In this document: piece after piece, positions 6,297 to 51,919 of the stretch
Layout of the letters: every line of letters begins with the position of its first letter
Position numbering within the stretch: position 1 is the stretch's first letter
Assembly (NCBI GenBank): GCA_020052415.1
Contig: JAGVPB010000042.1
Location: 1 to 64,000, forward strand
DNA length: 64,000 nt
Reading direction: 5' to 3'
Source: Bacteroidales bacterium
Lineage (GTDB): Bacteria > Bacteroidota > Bacteroidia > Bacteroidales > JAADJA01
Program-made: the position numbers and the translations under genes
Notes under the pieces: model-generated
Told to the model about the DNA's origin: nothing
Seen by the model: only the letters and a program-made list of their open reading frames with translations
Databases searched by the model: none

Positions 6297-6312
6297 TCCG
6301 CCAGTAGGCGGA
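6297..6312. repeat. 16-bp palindrome TCCGCC-AGTA-GGCGGA
   Basis: A perfect inverted repeat with a 6-bp stem and AGTA loop, 20 bp after the methyltransferase stop. It resembles the TCYCGCC-NNN-GGCGRGA elements at 18911, 37542, 37576 and 37760 (same GC-rich core, TCC/GGA ends), and is probably a shorter or diverged member. There is no T-run, so it is unlikely to be a rho-independent terminator. Confidence 0.5.
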
Positions 6313-16645: not shown

Positions 16646-16698
16646 TTTGGAAATCAGTTGAAGACAAAACTCGTATTTGAGAAAAGGATAAGTGCCAA

Positions 16699-16762
16699 GA
16701 GCAGTGGCAGGAGCAGCGGCAGGAGCAGCGGCAGCAGTAGAGGTGGTAGCAGGCAGCAGCAG
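16699..16762. repeat. GAGCAGCGGCAG 12-mer minisatellite
   Basis: Three tandem 12-mers at 16699-16734 (GAGCAGTGGCAG, then GAGCAGCGGCAG twice), then decaying variants and a CAG-rich end. It lies in the 347-bp gap between the DUF2027-Smr gene and parE and runs into the GAAC-type tract. Confidence 0.7.
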
Positions 16763-16763
16763 T

Positions 16764-16891
16764 AAAACTCAGAACCCGGAACTCTGAACACGGAACCAGA
16801 AACCAGTGACTAGTACCCAGTGACCAGTAACCAGTTAGCAATTGCCAACTCAGAACTCTGAACAGAGAACCCTGAACAAAGAACAGAATCC
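16764..16891. repeat. Composite GAAC / CCAGTAAC repeat tract
   Basis: Degenerate words such as AACTCAGAAC, GGAACTCTGAAC, ACCAGTGAC and GACCAGTAACCAG follow each other with a 7-8 bp period. The same phrases, including TCTGAAC and AACCAGTAAC, recur at 22780-23107 and, inverted, at 41760-41838. Confidence 0.7.
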
Positions 16892-16992: not shown

Positions 16993-18864
16993 ATGAGTGA
17001 AATTGCGTCTCAGAATTACACAGAAGATAATATCCGGTCGCTGGAGTGGAGTGAGCATATCCGTATGAGGCCTGGGATGTACATCGGCAAGCTTGGCGAC
17101 GGCGCTTCGCAGGACGACGGCATTTATGTGATGATCAAGGAAATCGTGGATAATTCCATTGACGAATTTGTAATGGGAAATGGCCGCAGCATAGATATTA
17201 CCATTGAAGAGAAACAGGTAACCATCAGGGATTACGGCAGAGGTATTCCCCTTGGTAAAGTGCTTGATTGCGTTTCAAAGATCAATACTGGTGCAAAATA
17301 CGATTCAAAGGTATTTAAGAAAGCTGTCGGTTTGAATGGTGTCGGTTCGAAAGCAGTAAACGCCCTTTCCTCCTGGTTCGTAACGCAATCTGTTAGAGAC
17401 GGCCTCACAAAAATCGTCGAATTTTCGAAAGGTGATCTGATCAAAGACCATCCGGAGCAGCCGACAGAAGAAAAGGATGGCACCATAGTTAAATTTATTC
17501 CTGATAAAGAGGTTTTCGGAAATTATCATTTTATTGCCGAATACGTTGAAAAGCTGCTATGGAATTATGCTTTTCTTAATGTCGGACTTACATTAAGATT
17601 CAATGGTGAAAGACTTACTGCCAAAAACGGATTAAGCGATTTGCTGGAACGCAACATCAATGGGAATGGTCCAACCCTGTATCCAATCATACACATCACT
17701 GAGGGCGACCTCGAATTTGCATTTACACACAGTTCCAAACAATATGGAGAAGAATATTATTCATTTGTAAACGGACAGCATACAACTCAGGGCGGAACCC
17801 ATCAAACGGCTTTCAGGGAAGCCATTGTAAAAACCATACGGGAATTTTACAACAAAGATTTTGAAACCAACGATATCCGTCAATCCATCCTTGCTGCCAT
17901 CAGCCTTAAAGTACAGGAACCGATTTTCGAATCACAGACCAAAACAAAGCTGGGTTCGCAGTATATGGAACCGGATGGGATGACGATCAGGAATTATATT
18001 CATGATGTTGTGAAGCGGAACCTGGATAATTATCTTCATAAAAATCCGGAAACCGCCGAAGAGTTGTACAGGAAAATCCTTCAGTCGCAGCGTGAGCGTA
18101 AAGAGCTCGACGGGATTAAAAAGCTGGCGAAAGAAAGTGTTAAAAAAGCCAGTCTTCACAATAAAAAGCTGCGCGATTGCAGGGTTCATTATAATTCAAA
18201 CCATGAGATGAGGCTCGACTCTACCATTTTTATTACCGAAGGAGATTCGGCCAGCGGTTCAATAACCAAATCGCGAAATGTAAATACCCAGGCTGTTTTT
18301 AGCCTAAAGGGAAAGCCCCTTAATTGTTTTGAACTTAGCAAGAAGGTCGTTTACCAGAATGAAGAGTTTAACCTTCTGCAAACCGCCTTAAATATTGACG
18401 ATGGCCTCGATAACCTCCGATATAACAATGTCGTTGTTGCTACCGATGCCGATGTTGACGGTATGCATATCCGCTTATTGCTTCTCACTTTTTTCCTGCA
18501 GTTCTATCCCGACCTTGTGAAAGCAGGCCATTTATATATTCTTCAAACACCATTGTTCCGGGTGAGGGATAAAAAAGAAACCATTTACTGTTATTCGGAA
18601 GAAGAAAAGCAGGAGGCGCTGGATAAGCTCAAAGGGAAGCCGGAGATCACCAGATTTAAAGGATTGGGCGAAATTTCACCCGATGAATTTAAATATTTTA
18701 TCGGCGCTTCAATCAGGCTCGATCCTGTTTTACTGCATCGCGATTCTTCAATTAAAGAAATGCTGTCATTTTTCATGGGCAAAAACACACCGGAGCGACA
18801 AACCTTCATCATTGATAACCTGAGGATTGAGGAAGATATTATTTTGGATGCACTTGTGGCGTAA
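16993..18864 (+). CDS. parE: DNA topoisomerase IV subunit B (ParE)
   Basis: 623 residues, a usual ParE length. The GHKL ATPase domain shows [10 protein letters not shown] (Mg-binding Asn), DYGRGIPLG and the [14 protein letters not shown] lid. The transducer domain follows, then the TOPRIM domain with [10 protein letters not shown], the [10 protein letters not shown] loop and [11 protein letters not shown] metal-binding Asps. The protein pairs with ParC to decatenate chromosomes. In Bacteroidetes parC usually sits directly downstream of parE; here parE is followed by a repeat tract and convergent nnr, so parC must lie elsewhere. GyrB is an alternative, but the compact 623-residue form and the sequence style favour ParE. 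Confidence 0.9.
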
Positions 18865-18868
18865 TGCT

Positions 18869-18943
18869 GGTTCCAGGTTCCAGGTTCCAGGTTCCAGGTT
18901 TCAGGTTTCATCTCGCCCTCGGCGAGACAGGTTTCAGGTTTCA
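18869..18943. repeat. GGTTCCA/GGTTTCA heptamer array, interrupted by a palindrome
   Basis: Four perfect GGTTCCA units (18869-18896) and two GGTTTCA units (18897-18910) are followed by a 17-bp palindrome, the bases CA, and two more GGTTTCA units (18930-18943). The array lies between convergent parE and nnr; the nnr stop codon and its last two codons fall inside it. Confidence 0.85.
18911..18927. repeat. 17-bp palindromic element TCTCGCC-CTC-GGCGAGA
   Basis: A perfect 7-bp-stem palindrome inside the GGTTTCA array. The array reads ...GGTTTCA, element, CA, GGTTTCA..., so removing the 17-mer plus one CA restores an unbroken heptamer phase. That looks like insertion with a 2-bp duplication. The same element type occurs in the tRNA-Gly copies at 37.5-37.8 kb. 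Confidence 0.75.
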
Positions 18944-20445
18944 AACTTTTTAAACGCCTTTCCCAGGCTTTCGTTAATGTTTCCTGCATTAAGAGCGTTG
19001 TAACCATGTTTTTTTGCCGCGATATCGCCAGCCAAACCATGAATGTAAACACCAATCAGGCAGGTTTCGAGCGAAGTATATCCCTGGGCTTTCAATCCTA
19101 GCAGGATTCCAGTAAGGACATCTCCGCTGCCACCGGTTGCCATACCCGGATTTCCAGTCGAATTAAAATAACAACTACCGTCAGGACAAGTAATTGCCGT
19201 ATGTGCCCCTTTTAAAATAACATAAGCGTGATGCTTTATCGAAAATTCCCGCTGTTTTTCGTTCCGTTCAAAGTCGTCGGAGGTTTTGCCTGCAAGCCTT
19301 TCAAATTCTTTTGGATGAGGAGTGAAAATACTGTTCTTTGGTACAAAAGATATCCATGTTTTGTTTTCTGCCAGAATGTTAATTGCATCAGCATCAATTA
19401 TAAGTTCCATCCGGGCGTCCTGTATCAGGAGTTTCAGGGCATTTTGAGTCTTTTCGTTGGTGCCAATGCCCGGTCCAACAGCGATGGCATTATAACCTGA
19501 GAGGTACGGAAGCTCTGAAAAAACTTTTTTATGTGAATCAATATTAACCATTGCCTCAGGAACAGCAGTTTGAATAATCGTGTTACCTTTTTTCGGTATA
19601 TGCACAGTTATAAGTCCGGCTCCTGCCTTTAATCCGGCTTCAGAAGCAAGCACGGCTGCGCCCATCTTTCCGTAGCTTCCGGCTATCAGAAGCCCGTGTC
19701 CATAGGTTCCTTTATGCGAAAACTTAGTTCTCTTTCTTACCAGAGGACGAATATTTTCGTTGGTAAGAAAATGATTTTTAACCTTGACATTGCTGATAAA
19801 ATCCGGATGTATCCCGATTGGAAGAACTTTCCATTCCCCAAGGTATTTATCATTTTCGGGGAAAAAAAAGCCATATTTTGGAAATTGGAAGGTAAGTGTA
19901 TAATCGGCTTTGACGACAGCACCTTCATTTGTTGTATTTGAACTGTCGCAATAGAAGCCCGTCGGCACATCCACTGCAATTACAACAGCCCTGCATTCAT
20001 TAATATGATCAACAACCTTTGCCACAAAGCCTGTAACCGGCCTTGTAAGCCCCGAACCGAATACTGCATCTATAACAAGTTCATTTCCATTAATTTGCGG
20101 CAAAGGGTCTTTTTCGTCAATCTCCGTGAGCCTGACAGATTTTAAACTCCGGATTTTCTGATAATTGGCCTCACAACTTGGCGACAAGCGGGTCGTATGC
20201 CTGACAAGGATAATTTCAGTTGCGAATCCAGCAAGAGCCAGCATTCTTCCGACGGCAAATCCGTCGCCGCCGTTGTTTCCACAACCGCAGAAAATCATTA
20301 TTTTTTTCCCGGCTTCGGTATTGCCCGAAATCCAAACGAACAATTCCATTGCGGCCCTTTCCATCAGGTCAATGTCGGCAATGGGCTCATTTTCGACGGT
20401 ATAGGCATCAGCTTCCCTGATTTTATCAATTGACAGGATTTTCAT
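18934..20445 (-). CDS. nnr: Bifunctional NAD(P)H-hydrate epimerase / ADP-dependent dehydratase
   Basis: 503 residues, matching the fused Nnr (YjeF) enzyme. The N-terminal epimerase domain (about 1-215) has GCGNNGGDGFAVGR and a DAVFGSG motif. The C-terminal ribokinase-like dehydratase (about 225-500) has the FTPHPKEF stretch and the GGSGDVLTGI anion-hole motif. Together they repair hydrated NADH and NADPH in the cytosol. The last residues and stop (ET, TGA) are encoded by a GGTTTCA heptamer of the adjacent repeat, so the C-terminus has probably been changed slightly by the repeat. It is a single gene, convergent with parE. Confidence 0.93.
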   Translation of the reverse strand: MKILSIDKIREADAYTVENEPIADIDLMERAAMELFVWISGNTEAGKKIMIFCGCGNNGGDGFAVGRMLALAGFATEIILVRHTTRLSPSCEANYQKIRSLKSVRLTEIDEKDPLPQINGNELVIDAVFGSGLTRPVTGFVAKVVDHINECRAVVIAVDVPTGFYCDSSNTTNEGAVVKADYTLTFQFPKYGFFFPENDKYLGEWKVLPIGIHPDFISNVKVKNHFLTNENIRPLVRKRTKFSHKGTYGHGLLIAGSYGKMGAAVLASEAGLKAGAGLITVHIPKKGNTIIQTAVPEAMVNIDSHKKVFSELPYLSGYNAIAVGPGIGTNEKTQNALKLLIQDARMELIIDADAINILAENKTWISFVPKNSIFTPHPKEFERLAGKTSDDFERNEKQREFSIKHHAYVILKGAHTAITCPDGSCYFNSTGNPGMATGGSGDVLTGILLGLKAQGYTSLETCLIGVYIHGLAGDIAAKKHGYNALNAGNINESLGKAFKKFET

Positions 20446-22779: not shown

Positions 22780-23107
22780 AAATTCCAAACTGAGAACTCA
22801 GACTTAAGAGCAACAGGCAGTCGGCAGTATGCAACAGGCAAAGGAACTCGGGAACACGAACTCAGGACCCGGAACTTTATGGGGGTATAAAGAAATAGGG
22901 GTATAAGGTGAAGTGGATGCAGGAGTGGCAGAAACAGTTGCAGTGGCACTAGCAAACTCACACCCACAACTCAAACCCAGCGCCCTGCTCCATGCTAAAG
23001 AAACAGTCGGCAATGACCAACTCTGAACTCAAAACTCAGAACACAAAACCCGAAACCAGTAACAAGTAACCAGCATCCAGCAACCAGCAACCAGTCGGCA
23101 ATGGCAT
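22780..23107. repeat. Long composite GAAC / CCAGCAACC repeat tract
   Basis: About 330 bases of degenerate 7-8-mers: CTGAGAACTCAGAC, CAGGAACTCGGGAAC, AACTCTGAACTCAAAAC, AACCAGTAACAAGTAACC and CAGCAACCAGCAACC. Two G-rich words (GGGGGTATAA, AGGGGTATAA) are embedded. Short open frames across it have repeat-derived composition and are not genes. It fills most of the 860-bp gap upstream of tmRNA. Confidence 0.75.
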
Positions 23108-23139
23108 TAAATACATTTTTCATTTATTGATTTTAGTTG

Positions 23140-23147
23140 TAATTTTG
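23140..23147 (+). promoter_or_regulatory. Possible tmRNA promoter box TAATTTTG
   Basis: An exact TAnnTTTG on the plus strand, the only such box noticed between the composite repeats and the tmRNA gene. If used, the precursor would carry a 5' leader of about 200 bases containing the 9-mer and GAAC tracts, removed when the mature 5' end is made. Confidence 0.3.
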
Positions 23148-23209
23148 CATCGGTTTCAGAAATTGTTCTTTGGTATAAAATTCTTCAGGTTATTGTTAGG
23201 ACAAAATTG

Positions 23210-23254
23210 GTTGATTAAGTTAATTAGGTTAATTGGGTTGATTGAGTTGATGAG
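23210..23254. repeat. Five tandem 9-mers (GTTRATTRR)
   Basis: GTTGATTAA, GTTAATTAG, GTTAATTGG, GTTGATTGA and GTTGATGAG follow one another in exact 9-bp phase. It is a minisatellite upstream of tmRNA; the period matches the 9-mer tract at 39.2 kb, though the unit differs. Confidence 0.8.
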
Positions 23255-23278
23255 GATTAACAGGCAGGTGGGGGTATA

Positions 23279-23347
23279 ACCTCAGAACACGGAACTCAGA
23301 ACAAGGAACACGGAACTCTGAACTTCGAACTTCGAACTTCGAACTTC
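23279..23347. repeat. GAAC heptamer tract abutting tmRNA
   Basis: Words of the CAGAACACGGAACT type lead into four perfect GAACTTC heptamers (23320-23347), ending 11 bases before the mature tmRNA 5' end. Confidence 0.8.
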
Positions 23348-23358
23348 AAATTCCATTC

Positions 23359-23757
23359 GGGGCTGACCGGATTTGACAGCAAGGACAGTGGGACTGTAAG
23401 CATGCCGGGCATTGACGATGTGGCTCGTTAAAAACTATCTTCAAACAACAATTGGCGATACTAATTACGCTCTCGCTGCCTAATCGAATCAAGTAGATTA
23501 TGGCTTCATCCCGACACAAGGTGACGGGACGGGACATCCCGCAGGCGGATTTGCCTGATTCCAACCTGACCAACGGGGTGCACGCAATTTCGGGCTGGTT
23601 CTGTAAGAGCCTTGATTACAGGATAAGATTAAAAGGATAAGACGTTGATTTGGGTGTCTGCTCCCGGGCAACGTTCGAAAATCAATAACAGAATAAGCAT
23701 GTAGAAAGCACTTTTGCTGCTTGTTTGGACGAGGGTTCGACTCCCTCCAGCTCCACT
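23359..23757 (+). ncRNA. ssrA: tmRNA (ssrA), tag GDTNYALAA
   Basis: The 5' end GGGGCTGACCGGATTTGACA and 3' end GGTTCGACTCCCTCCAGCTCC are the conserved tRNA-like ends of tmRNA; GGGGCUG pairs with CAGCUCC in the acceptor stem and a T-arm GGGTTCGACTCCC is present. The tag frame runs 23454-23483: GGC GAT ACT AAT TAC GCT CTC GCT GCC then TAA, giving GDTNYALAA after the charged Ala, close to Bacteroides tags. CCA is not encoded (the sequence is CCACTT). tmRNA with SmpB rescues stalled ribosomes and marks the peptide for proteolysis. A strong terminator follows. Confidence 0.95.
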
Positions 23758-23762
23758 TAAAG

Positions 23763-37531: not shown

Positions 37532-37610
37532 GAGCGGGAAATCCCGCCAGAGGCAGGACGACCCTCAGCTTGGGATCCCGCCAACGGCGGGACTACCAAC
37601 TGAGCTACTC
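37532..37610 (-). pseudogene. Decayed tRNA-Gly copy A, two arms replaced by 17-bp palindromes
   Basis: On the minus strand it reads GAGTAGCTCAGTTGGTAG, a 17-mer palindrome (37576-37592, TCCCGCCAACGGCGGGA on plus), TCCCAAGCTGAGGGTCG, a second 17-mer (37542-37558, TCCCGCCAGAGGCAGGA on plus), then TTTCCCGCTC. All the tRNA segments match the intact tRNA-Gly at 37655-37727. The first palindrome stands exactly where AGCATCAGCT is in the real tRNA; the second stands exactly where the T-arm is. The 5' acceptor half is also lost, so it cannot be a working tRNA. A terminator-like stretch (TGTAGGTC then a T-run) follows on the minus strand. Confidence 0.8.
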
Positions 37611-37643: not shown

Positions 37644-37654
37644 CCATTCTTTTG

Positions 37655-37727
37655 AGCGGGAAACGGGATTCGAACCCGCGACCCTCAGCTTGGGAAGCTG
37701 ATGCTCTACCAACTGAGCTACTCCCGC
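37655..37727 (-). tRNA. tRNA-Gly (anticodon CCC)
   Basis: 73 nt. Acceptor GCGGGAG pairs with TTCCCGC (one G-U); D-arm AGCTCAGTTGGTAGAGC; anticodon stem TCAGC/GCTGA with loop TTCCCAA, anticodon CCC at plus-strand 37692-37694; T-arm CGGGTTCGAATCCCG. CCA is not encoded. It reads GGG codons. It is flanked on both sides by decayed copies that carry 17-bp palindromes. Confidence 0.93.
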
Positions 37728-37745
37728 TTAAATTGTTTATATTAT

Positions 37746-37798
37746 CCCTCAGCCTGGGATCTCGCCGACGGCGAGACTACCAACTGAGCTACTCCCGC
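37746..37798 (-). pseudogene. Decayed tRNA-Gly copy B with a 17-bp palindrome
   Basis: On the minus strand GCGGGAGTAGCTCAGTTGG plus TAG, then the palindrome TCTCGCCGTCGGCGAGA (37760-37776 on plus), then TCCCAGGCTGAGGG, after which tRNA similarity ends. The acceptor 5' half and D-arm are intact. The palindrome occupies the same junction as in copy A, between GGTAG and TCCCA, but its third stem pair is T-A instead of C-G, so the two copies differ by a compensated change. Confidence 0.8.
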
Positions 37799-43526: not shown

Positions 43527-43571
43527 GAACTCAGAACTCAGAACTCAGAACTCAGAACTCAGAACCTGAAA
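43527..43571. repeat. GAACTCA heptamer array
   Basis: Five perfect tandem GAACTCA units (43527-43561), then GAACCTG and AAAC. It ends 5 bases before the stop codon of the large sensor kinase. Confidence 0.9.
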
Positions 43572-51849: not shown

Positions 51850-51919
51850 CTTTATCACTGAACATTGAACTCAGAACTCAAAACTCAGAACTCGGAACCC
51901 TGAACTTCAAACATTGAAC
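51850..51919. repeat. GAAC heptamer tract running into the uvrB start
   Basis: ACTGAACATTGAAC, TCAGAACTCAAAACTCAG, AACTCGGAACC and CTGAACTTCAAACATTGAAC follow in 7-bp-like phase. The last TTGAAC unit contains the TTG (51914) that opens the uvrB frame. Confidence 0.8.

Follow-up and report, generated by a model that had tools for sequence, protein, structure and literature searches.

The DNA between two convergent genes of a Bacteroidales bacterium raises the question of how a 17-bp palindrome came to lie within an array of tandem 7-bp units. The window, by which the whole stretch of 64,000 nucleotides that was analysed is meant, represents positions 1-64000 of contig C55 in a 4.67-Mb draft genome of 94 contigs (completeness 97.41). 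The relevant features are listed in Table 1.

Table 1. Features of the window at the interrupted array and at the tRNA-Gly locus
Feature	Position	Strand	Remarks
parE-like gene (DNA topoisomerase IV subunit B)	16993..18864	+	stops 4 bp short of the array; named from the sequence-only reading and the gene sequence
Left heptamer array, (GGTTCCA)4(GGTTTCA)2	18869..18910	.	read from the sequence
17-bp palindrome TCTCGCC-CTC-GGCGAGA (TCTCGCCCTCGGCGAGA)	18911..18927	.	7-bp perfect stem, 3-nt loop
Right flank, CA(GGTTTCA)2	18928..18943	.	CA is a 2-bp phase shift
nnr-like gene (NAD(P)HX epimerase/dehydratase)	18934..20445	-	convergent with parE; C-terminus within the right array; named from the sequence-only reading
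Imperfect hairpin TCCCGCCAGAGGCAGGA	37542..37558	.	replaces the T arm of an extra tRNA-Gly copy (~37534-37609)
Hairpin TCCCGCCAACGGCGGGA	37576..37592	.	replaces 10 nt (AGCATCAGCT, tRNA strand) of the same extra copy (~37534-37609)
Intact tRNA-Gly(CCC)	37654..37727	-	
Hairpin TCTCGCCGACGGCGAGA	37760..37776	.	in a second extra tRNA-Gly copy (~37744-37798), 3' part lost

A sequence-only reading of this DNA had placed the palindrome inside a heptamer array of the GGTTTCA type, and had held that the array phase returns when the palindrome is taken out together with two bases. Both points are borne out: the array is read here in the same way, and removal of the 17-mer plus 2 bases leaves 48 of 49 lag-7 comparisons matching, vs 44/51, 45/50, and 43/48 when 0, 1, and 3 bases are removed with it. 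As single-stranded DNA, the palindrome is predicted to fold with -6.7 kcal/mol (z -3.0). With up to 3 mismatches, its pattern is found five times in the 64-kb window, against 0.68 expected and a maximum of 3 in 100 shuffles. A proposed link to the tRNA copies at 37.5-37.8 kb also holds, the hairpin at 37760-37776 having the identical 14 stem bases and that at 37576-37592 differing by one compensated stem pair. The supposed shorter relative at 6297-6312, on the other hand, has a different stem (TCCGCC) and a 4-nt loop, and hairpins of that type number one in the 64 kb, which is near expectation (shuffled mean 0.27, maximum 2, in 60 shuffles of dinucleotide blocks).

The window contains many degenerate 7-bp arrays (GAACTCA, AACCAGC, GAACTTC, and relatives, at 16690-16890, 22840-23350, 43527-43565, and 51867-51906, among others), in which the unit type shifts along one array. 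Arrays without a hairpin are also present, e.g., at 43527-43565. Just before a tmRNA gene (23359-23758) lies a mixed heptamer array (23281-23347).

The palindrome is a member of a multi-copy family, as a genome-wide count makes clear. The exact pattern, TCTCGCCNNNGGCGAGA, occurs at 42 places in the genome and its reversed control at none; the wider pattern, TCNCGCCNNNGGCGNGA, occurs at 54 (control 0), and the pattern with at most 2 mismatches at 76 (control 2). In the sampled DNA, which consists of partly overlapping stretches enriched for hairpin sites, 39 of 458 inverted repeats start with TCTCG and 15 with TCCCG, the next commonest count being 6. Among the 53 distinct copies examined (53 of the 54 wide-pattern sites), 42 have the form TCTCG/CGAGA, nine have TCCCG/CGGGA, and two have the third position unpaired. 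Because the alignment of the copies was chosen by the pattern, stem pair 3/15, which was free in the search, offers the sole fair test of covariation; it shows standard pairing in 51 of the 53 (42 T-A and 9 C-G). Degenerate copies of the hairpin are also present in the genome.

The wider pattern is matched as well by RNase P RNA helices of the genus; an alignment across 11 genomes led to their being judged ordinary variable helices, and these matches were rejected as family members. Two RNase P RNAs carry a palindromic insert near the 3' end: that of G010 (L091) has an 18-nt palindrome, TCCCGATAACTATCGGGA, where most sister species have approximately 4-6 nt, and that of G007 (L092) has a similar one.

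The burst of TCTCG hairpins is restricted to this species in the samples searched. A search of 60 genomes gave 22 copies of the wider pattern in the 16 sister species of the genus (0-5 per genome), not one with the TCTCG/CGAGA form, and six in G056, a genome from a different family of the order, where five are TCTCG. Among 396 sampled genomes of the class, 17 contain the TCTCG form, the top count after this genome being 8; several class-level matches outside tRNA-Asp copies look unrelated, such as the one in L183, which resembles a terminator hairpin. When hairpin stems were counted de novo in six sister genomes (74-200 kb each), no comparable high-copy family emerged. A search of a contig database, outside which the window's own genome may lie, returned no record for the exact context pattern, and a tRNA-Pro D-arm pattern returned one, a Bacteroidales metagenome-assembled genome. 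The 7-bp arrays number 28 in 304 kb of the present genome, 3 in 200 kb of sister G012, and 0-4 per 74-80 kb in five other sisters.

The copies are strongly associated with such arrays. When an array flank is defined by at least 11 of 21 lag-7 matches, 32 of the 44 TCTCG-type copies (including the two with an unpaired position) adjoin an array on at least one side, vs 3.1% of random positions, and 14 of the 44 do so on both sides (background 0.36%). By the same criterion, none of the nine TCCCG-type copies has an array flank. The phase of the array shifts across the hairpin by 2 bp at 19 sites, by 1 bp at 11, and by 5 bp at two (L013 and L031, the latter a tRNA copy); these are the 32 readable sites of the 53, the phase being unreadable at 21, and the 19 include a TCCCG-type copy (L016) not in any heptamer array. 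An earlier pass with a different threshold gave a shift of 2 at 18 sites, of 1 at eight, and no other.

The shift goes with the unit type. Shifts of 2 bp pair with TGAAACC or GAGTTCT units, the hairpin lying at CTG^A, and shifts of 1 bp pair with GCCGACT units, the hairpin lying at CTGC^C, with L043 as the exception among the 11. L013, which is of the GCCGACT type, reads 5 and not 1. Uninterrupted vs filled segments number 3 vs 9 for the GCCRACT type, 13 vs 10 for TGAAACC, and 41 vs 5 for GTTCNGA, in partly overlapping stretches enriched for hairpin sites, with several segments counted per array and many of the uninterrupted TGAAACC segments adjoining a hairpin. The earlier view that the palindrome is inserted into heptamer arrays is thus upheld by three observations: the family is dispersed, its register hardly varies, and arrays built of the same kinds of unit exist without interruption. 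The 17-mer family is a dispersed repeat that occupies mostly a fixed array position and sometimes broken extra tRNA copies, and it looks mobile.

An orthologous empty site was sought in the parE-nnr gap of the sister species. None of the ten sister genomes in which both genes align on one locus shows the predicted gap short of just 19 bp; in all ten the hairpin and the whole array are absent. (The count leaves out G004, G008, G013, G014, and G016, with no nnr match on the same locus, and G005, with no close parE match.) The best 28-nt stretch of the sister gaps has 5-13 of 21 lag-7 matches, against 21 here; the highest value, 13/21, is in the 598-bp gap of G003, and the other sisters have 5-11. 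Within the genome, a repeat common to L030 and L054 has the hairpin in both copies and so supplies no empty site.

The sequences next to the hairpin, together with its loop, indicate what may have been transferred. The loop TTT is found at 12 of 16 GCCGACT-type sites and at none of 22 TGA-type sites (p 7e-7), in a comparison that omits the nine TCCCG/CGGGA copies and six others in neither class, and that includes the tRNA-Asp copy L004 in the TGA class. The 16 GCCGACT-type sites have TGCCGACTGC before the hairpin and CCGACT after it, even in arrays whose outer units are of another kind. Among these sites, conservation is 0.62-1.00 at positions -10 to -1, 0.88-1.00 at +1 to +6 (partly set by the class definition at +1 to +4), and 0.38-0.75 beyond, out to 14 nt. 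When 400-nt flanks were compared, more than 140 bp were common to two pairs of distinct sites (L030/L054, 173 bp; L005/L051, 149 bp), and the other listed matches between distinct loci, at 45-106 bp, may include plain array similarity. These observations favour joint transfer of the hairpin and its nearest heptamers over that of long segments. Free re-insertion of a bare 17-mer is disfavoured, because it would scramble the observed correspondence between loop type and array type.

The reading preferred here, tentatively and at slightly less than even chances, is that the 17-mer is one member of an SDR-like, extremely short dispersed hairpin element that has multiplied in this species, spreading from array to array by copying with its flanking heptamers. 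Most TCTCG-type copies are found in degenerate intergenic 7-bp arrays, with an almost constant place in the unit. The chief route would be the copying of the hairpin and its neighbouring heptamer or heptamers from one array to another, by template switching or gene conversion via common 7-bp units. In the GCCGACT type, approximately 33 nt (TGCCGACTGC-hairpin-CCGACT) would travel as one unit. On this view, the 2-bp and 1-bp phase shifts would go back to at least two founding events, instead of marking a fresh target-site duplication at each site. There is a good case for a recent spread of the family, movement itself being inferred; the copy number, the restriction in the samples, the array association, the register, the compensated stem change, and the absence of the array in ten sisters are direct observations.

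Several considerations stand against this reading. Copying with heptamers cannot be the route in the tRNA copies, nor in the majority of six TCTCG-type sites that belong to neither array class, one of which (L051) adjoins another array. A GC-rich 7-bp hairpin can arise independently, as in the RNase P RNA helices of the genus. The unrelated-looking class-level matches and the phase of 5 at L013 also count against it.

An enzyme may have inserted the hairpins instead. In this alternative, which is considered unlikely, the hairpin would be mobilised in single-stranded form by a HUH (Y1) transposase acting in trans, and would enter 3' of CTG or CTGC without target duplication, the extra TG or C being a tail of the element. 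Seven Y1_Tnp genes are present in the genome, and in five of the translations (L019, L020, L021, L022, and L025) the signature Y---Q--HH may be read, although L025 has an in-frame stop. An excerpt of PMC6006769 assigns this signature to subclass 1.2, whose members come chiefly from Cyanobacteria and Bacteroidetes and as a rule lack typical IS200 ends. The palindromes in tRNA-Arg copies of sister species, where nothing is duplicated, would suit such an enzyme, and where the shift is 2 bp (19 sites), TG starts the right flank in 17 and ends the left flank in 14, a weak difference. The near-constant CTG^A place in two unit types could just as well reflect an insertion enzyme with sequence specificity. 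The Y1 genes themselves, however, do not point to the 17-mer. No exact copy occurs near any of the seven within the 1.8-5.9 kb searched on each side, so that a RAYT source, which the sequence-only reading had suggested looking for, is not supported; the nearest exact copy is 6.4 kb downstream of a Y1 gene in L056, a one-mismatch copy is approximately 3.1 kb from the gene in L058, and two of the genes are flanked by other hairpins. The array copies are preceded by no constant tag such as GTAG, and the correspondence of loop with array type argues against this alternative also. Two loci, L023 and L024, contain Y1 transposase-like genes (YIHNNP) with upstream palindromes of their own, e.g., CTAAGGCTCTGCCTTAG at L024, which are unlike the 17-mer.

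A broader form of the same idea, which appears improbable, would make the 17-bp hairpin with its heptamer flanks (~33 nt) a mobile element of the Bacteroidota in its own right, seeded from tRNA/GIY-YIG modules, with orphan Y1 transposases of subclass 1.2 moving it in single-stranded form. The phyla with known hairpins in heptamer arrays would then coincide with Cyanobacteria and Bacteroidetes, to which subclass 1.2 is reportedly almost confined.

The tRNA copies present a different setting for the same hairpin. Two extra tRNA-Gly copies flank the intact gene in the window, and in both the same 10 nt are replaced (the hairpins at 37576 and 37760); in copies of tRNA-Pro, tRNA-Asp, and tRNA-Glu, other parts than in tRNA-Gly are replaced. 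An extra tRNA-Glu copy (L149:1746-1868) has three successive TCCCG...CGGGA inverted repeats of 17, 46, and 45 bp, the first replacing the 17-nt anticodon arm. Small GIY-YIG genes stand beside tRNA genes or copies with palindrome-altered arms at L146, L147, L149, and L150 in this genome, and at L181, L182, L191, L192, L194, L197, L205, and L208 in others.

In the present genome, four of the eight small GIY-YIG genes adjoin tRNA genes or hairpin-bearing tRNA copies, and a tRNA or tmRNA call is found within 12 of 28 sister GIY-YIG loci (10/21 + 2/7), these 28 being the readable ones among a larger number of GIY-YIG matches. At 11 of 14 loci seen in detail (three in this genome, one in another family, ten in sisters) a palindrome lies in, or forms part of, an extra tRNA copy, those of L192, L196, and L205 having been read by eye from sequence segments; L193 and L206 have copies without a palindrome, and L200 (tmRNA) has no copy. 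The tRNA-Arg copies of L192, L205, and L208 consist of intact halves separated by the palindrome at nucleotides 21/22 or 22/23. By reading, the TCTCGCC hairpin is located in tRNA-Asp copies at CCTGTCA^ in this genome (L004/L146) and in L180 and L182, and three nucleotides later in L181, where L180, L181, and L182 represent three other families of the class.

ARAGORN calls no intact tRNA in L180 or L181, and its tRNA-Ala(cgc) at L182:1467-1541 resembles a hairpin-carrying tRNA-Asp copy. Likewise, a tRNA-Cys call in L196 looks more like a copy with a hairpin than like a genuine gene. Hairpin-carrying tRNA copies can therefore produce false tRNA annotations. The tRNA/GIY-YIG modules are possibly a second system, of the homing type and perhaps undescribed; among the matches listed in a literature search, mostly on mitochondria, none describes bacterial tRNA copies that contain hairpins and adjoin GIY-YIG genes.

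With respect to the preferred reading, namely that of copying between arrays, the founder may have derived from the hairpins in the extra tRNA copies of these modules, because the same 14 stem bases occur in extra tRNA-Asp copies here and in three other families of the class, at one shared point or no more than 3 nt from it. It is a further step, and a very improbable one, to make the array copies side products of the GIY-YIG nucleases, which would cut tRNA genes and occasionally array DNA, break repair leaving the hairpin behind. The linkage of these genes to tRNA or tmRNA features, the palindromes at most of the detailed loci, and the occurrence of the same hairpin with GIY-YIG genes in other families (L181 and L182) are consistent with cutting. 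Nevertheless, contig C55 has hairpin-bearing tRNA-Gly copies and no GIY-YIG match, the hairpin sequences vary widely among modules, the copies of L193 and L206 are without a hairpin, and no link between GIY-YIG genes and arrays is seen.

That every copy arose by classical insertion and duplicated 2 bp of its target, as the sequence-only reading had it and as may be compared with the yeast mitochondrial GC clusters flanked by AG or ACT, deserves very little credence. The 17-mer in the parE-nnr gap does have CA on each side (18909-18929), and identical dinucleotides flank the hairpin at 14 of the 19 two-base sites, but the next array unit agrees at 15 of the same 19, so that the extra bases match across the hairpin no better than adjacent array units match each other. 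When heterogeneous arrays only are considered, the agreement is 7/12. The shift of 1 bp at 8 or 11 sites (in the two passes) and the tRNA-Arg palindromes without duplication also argue against it, and no constant target-site duplication, as would mark a DNA transposon or MITE, is seen across the readable sites. A 2-bp duplication was thus rejected as a general rule.

Nor does it seem at all probable that selection maintains the hairpins at gene ends as small structures for regulation or termination, with the arrays incidental. Their positions would in part agree with this: one of the 53 sites is inside a called gene and 12 are at a locus edge (tRNA genes not being called), 12 of 40 classifiable sites lie between convergent genes vs 20 of 123 control gaps, and 51 of the 53 copies retain the free stem pair. 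All gene orientations are represented, however, a mechanical list of open reading frames overlaps 14 of the 53 sites, degenerate copies exist, and the parE-nnr gap of the sister species has no hairpin. Intrinsic terminators in particular were rejected, since at none of the 53 sites do the 8 nt after the stem contain at least six T on either strand. A retro-element or other RNA intermediate was rejected because the genome, in an assembly 97.4% complete, has no match to PF00078 (RVT_1).

Repeats of approximately 20 bp are too short for transposon ends as usually understood. The present family is a case in which their spread may be studied, since it combines a species-specific burst and an almost constant register with several types of array, loops inherited along with them, and a candidate origin in tRNA modules.

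Several known systems resemble the family in part. The GC clusters of yeast mitochondria and other mitochondrial hairpin elements are likewise short GC-rich palindromes with conserved stems, variable loops, and short flanking direct repeats, according to excerpts of PMC4478555 and PMC2800124, the latter on the analogous elements of sponge mitochondria. The yeast clusters differ in residing in an organelle, in their length of 42 nt, and in their AG or ACT flanking repeats (PMC4478555, in part), duplication being unsupported for the 17-mer. Heptamer direct repeats (TAACTGA and others) are described from Beggiatoaceae, Cyanobacteria, and Bacteroidetes in PMC4679880; as here, they form intergenic 7-bp arrays with several units per region and are absent from close relatives, whereas the abstract and the Bacteroidetes section of that paper mention no hairpin inserts.

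The REP, BIME, and REPIN sequences, with their RAYT (TnpA-REP) genes, share with the family the extragenic palindromes in tens of copies, in a genome with Y1 transposase-like genes. The difference is that the present element is a single short hairpin and that no Y1 gene is flanked by the 17-mer. REP elements have a 5' tag tetranucleotide (GTAG, GGAG, or CGTC) at the foot of the stem. At the stem foot of the 53 copies no such tag recurs, GTAG being present in the tRNA copies, where it is the tRNA's own, and as gtagg at L051.

The nearest known kind is the cyanobacterial SDR elements in tandem heptamers. Those of Nostoc punctiforme are reportedly very short hairpin repeats, lineage-restricted, with compensatory stem changes and often in tandem heptamers, and an RNA-mediated route is said to have been suggested for their spread. 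An SDR-like hairpin family appears to be new in the Bacteroidota. On each point of this definition the likeness may be expressed in numbers: 42 short hairpin copies here vs at most 8 in 395 other genomes of the class; embedding in heptamers for 32 of 44 TCTCG-type copies (background 3.1%), though for 0 of 9 of the TCCCG type; and a stem pair 3/15 that is T-A in 42, C-G in nine, and unpaired in two of the 53. The two differ in phylum, in length (17 nt, or ~33 with flanks, vs 21-27), in the occurrence of the 17-mer in tRNA copies as well, and in the suggested RNA-mediated spread vs zero RVT_1 matches here; the likeness is one of description. The study of the Nostoc SDR elements (Elhai et al. 2008, doi 10.1101/gr.074336.107) is cited in PMC3116915 and PMC4390886, and an excerpt of the latter places SDR5 between nucleotides 3 and 4 of HIP1; SDR5 and the 17-mer have in common an exact placement within a host repeat.
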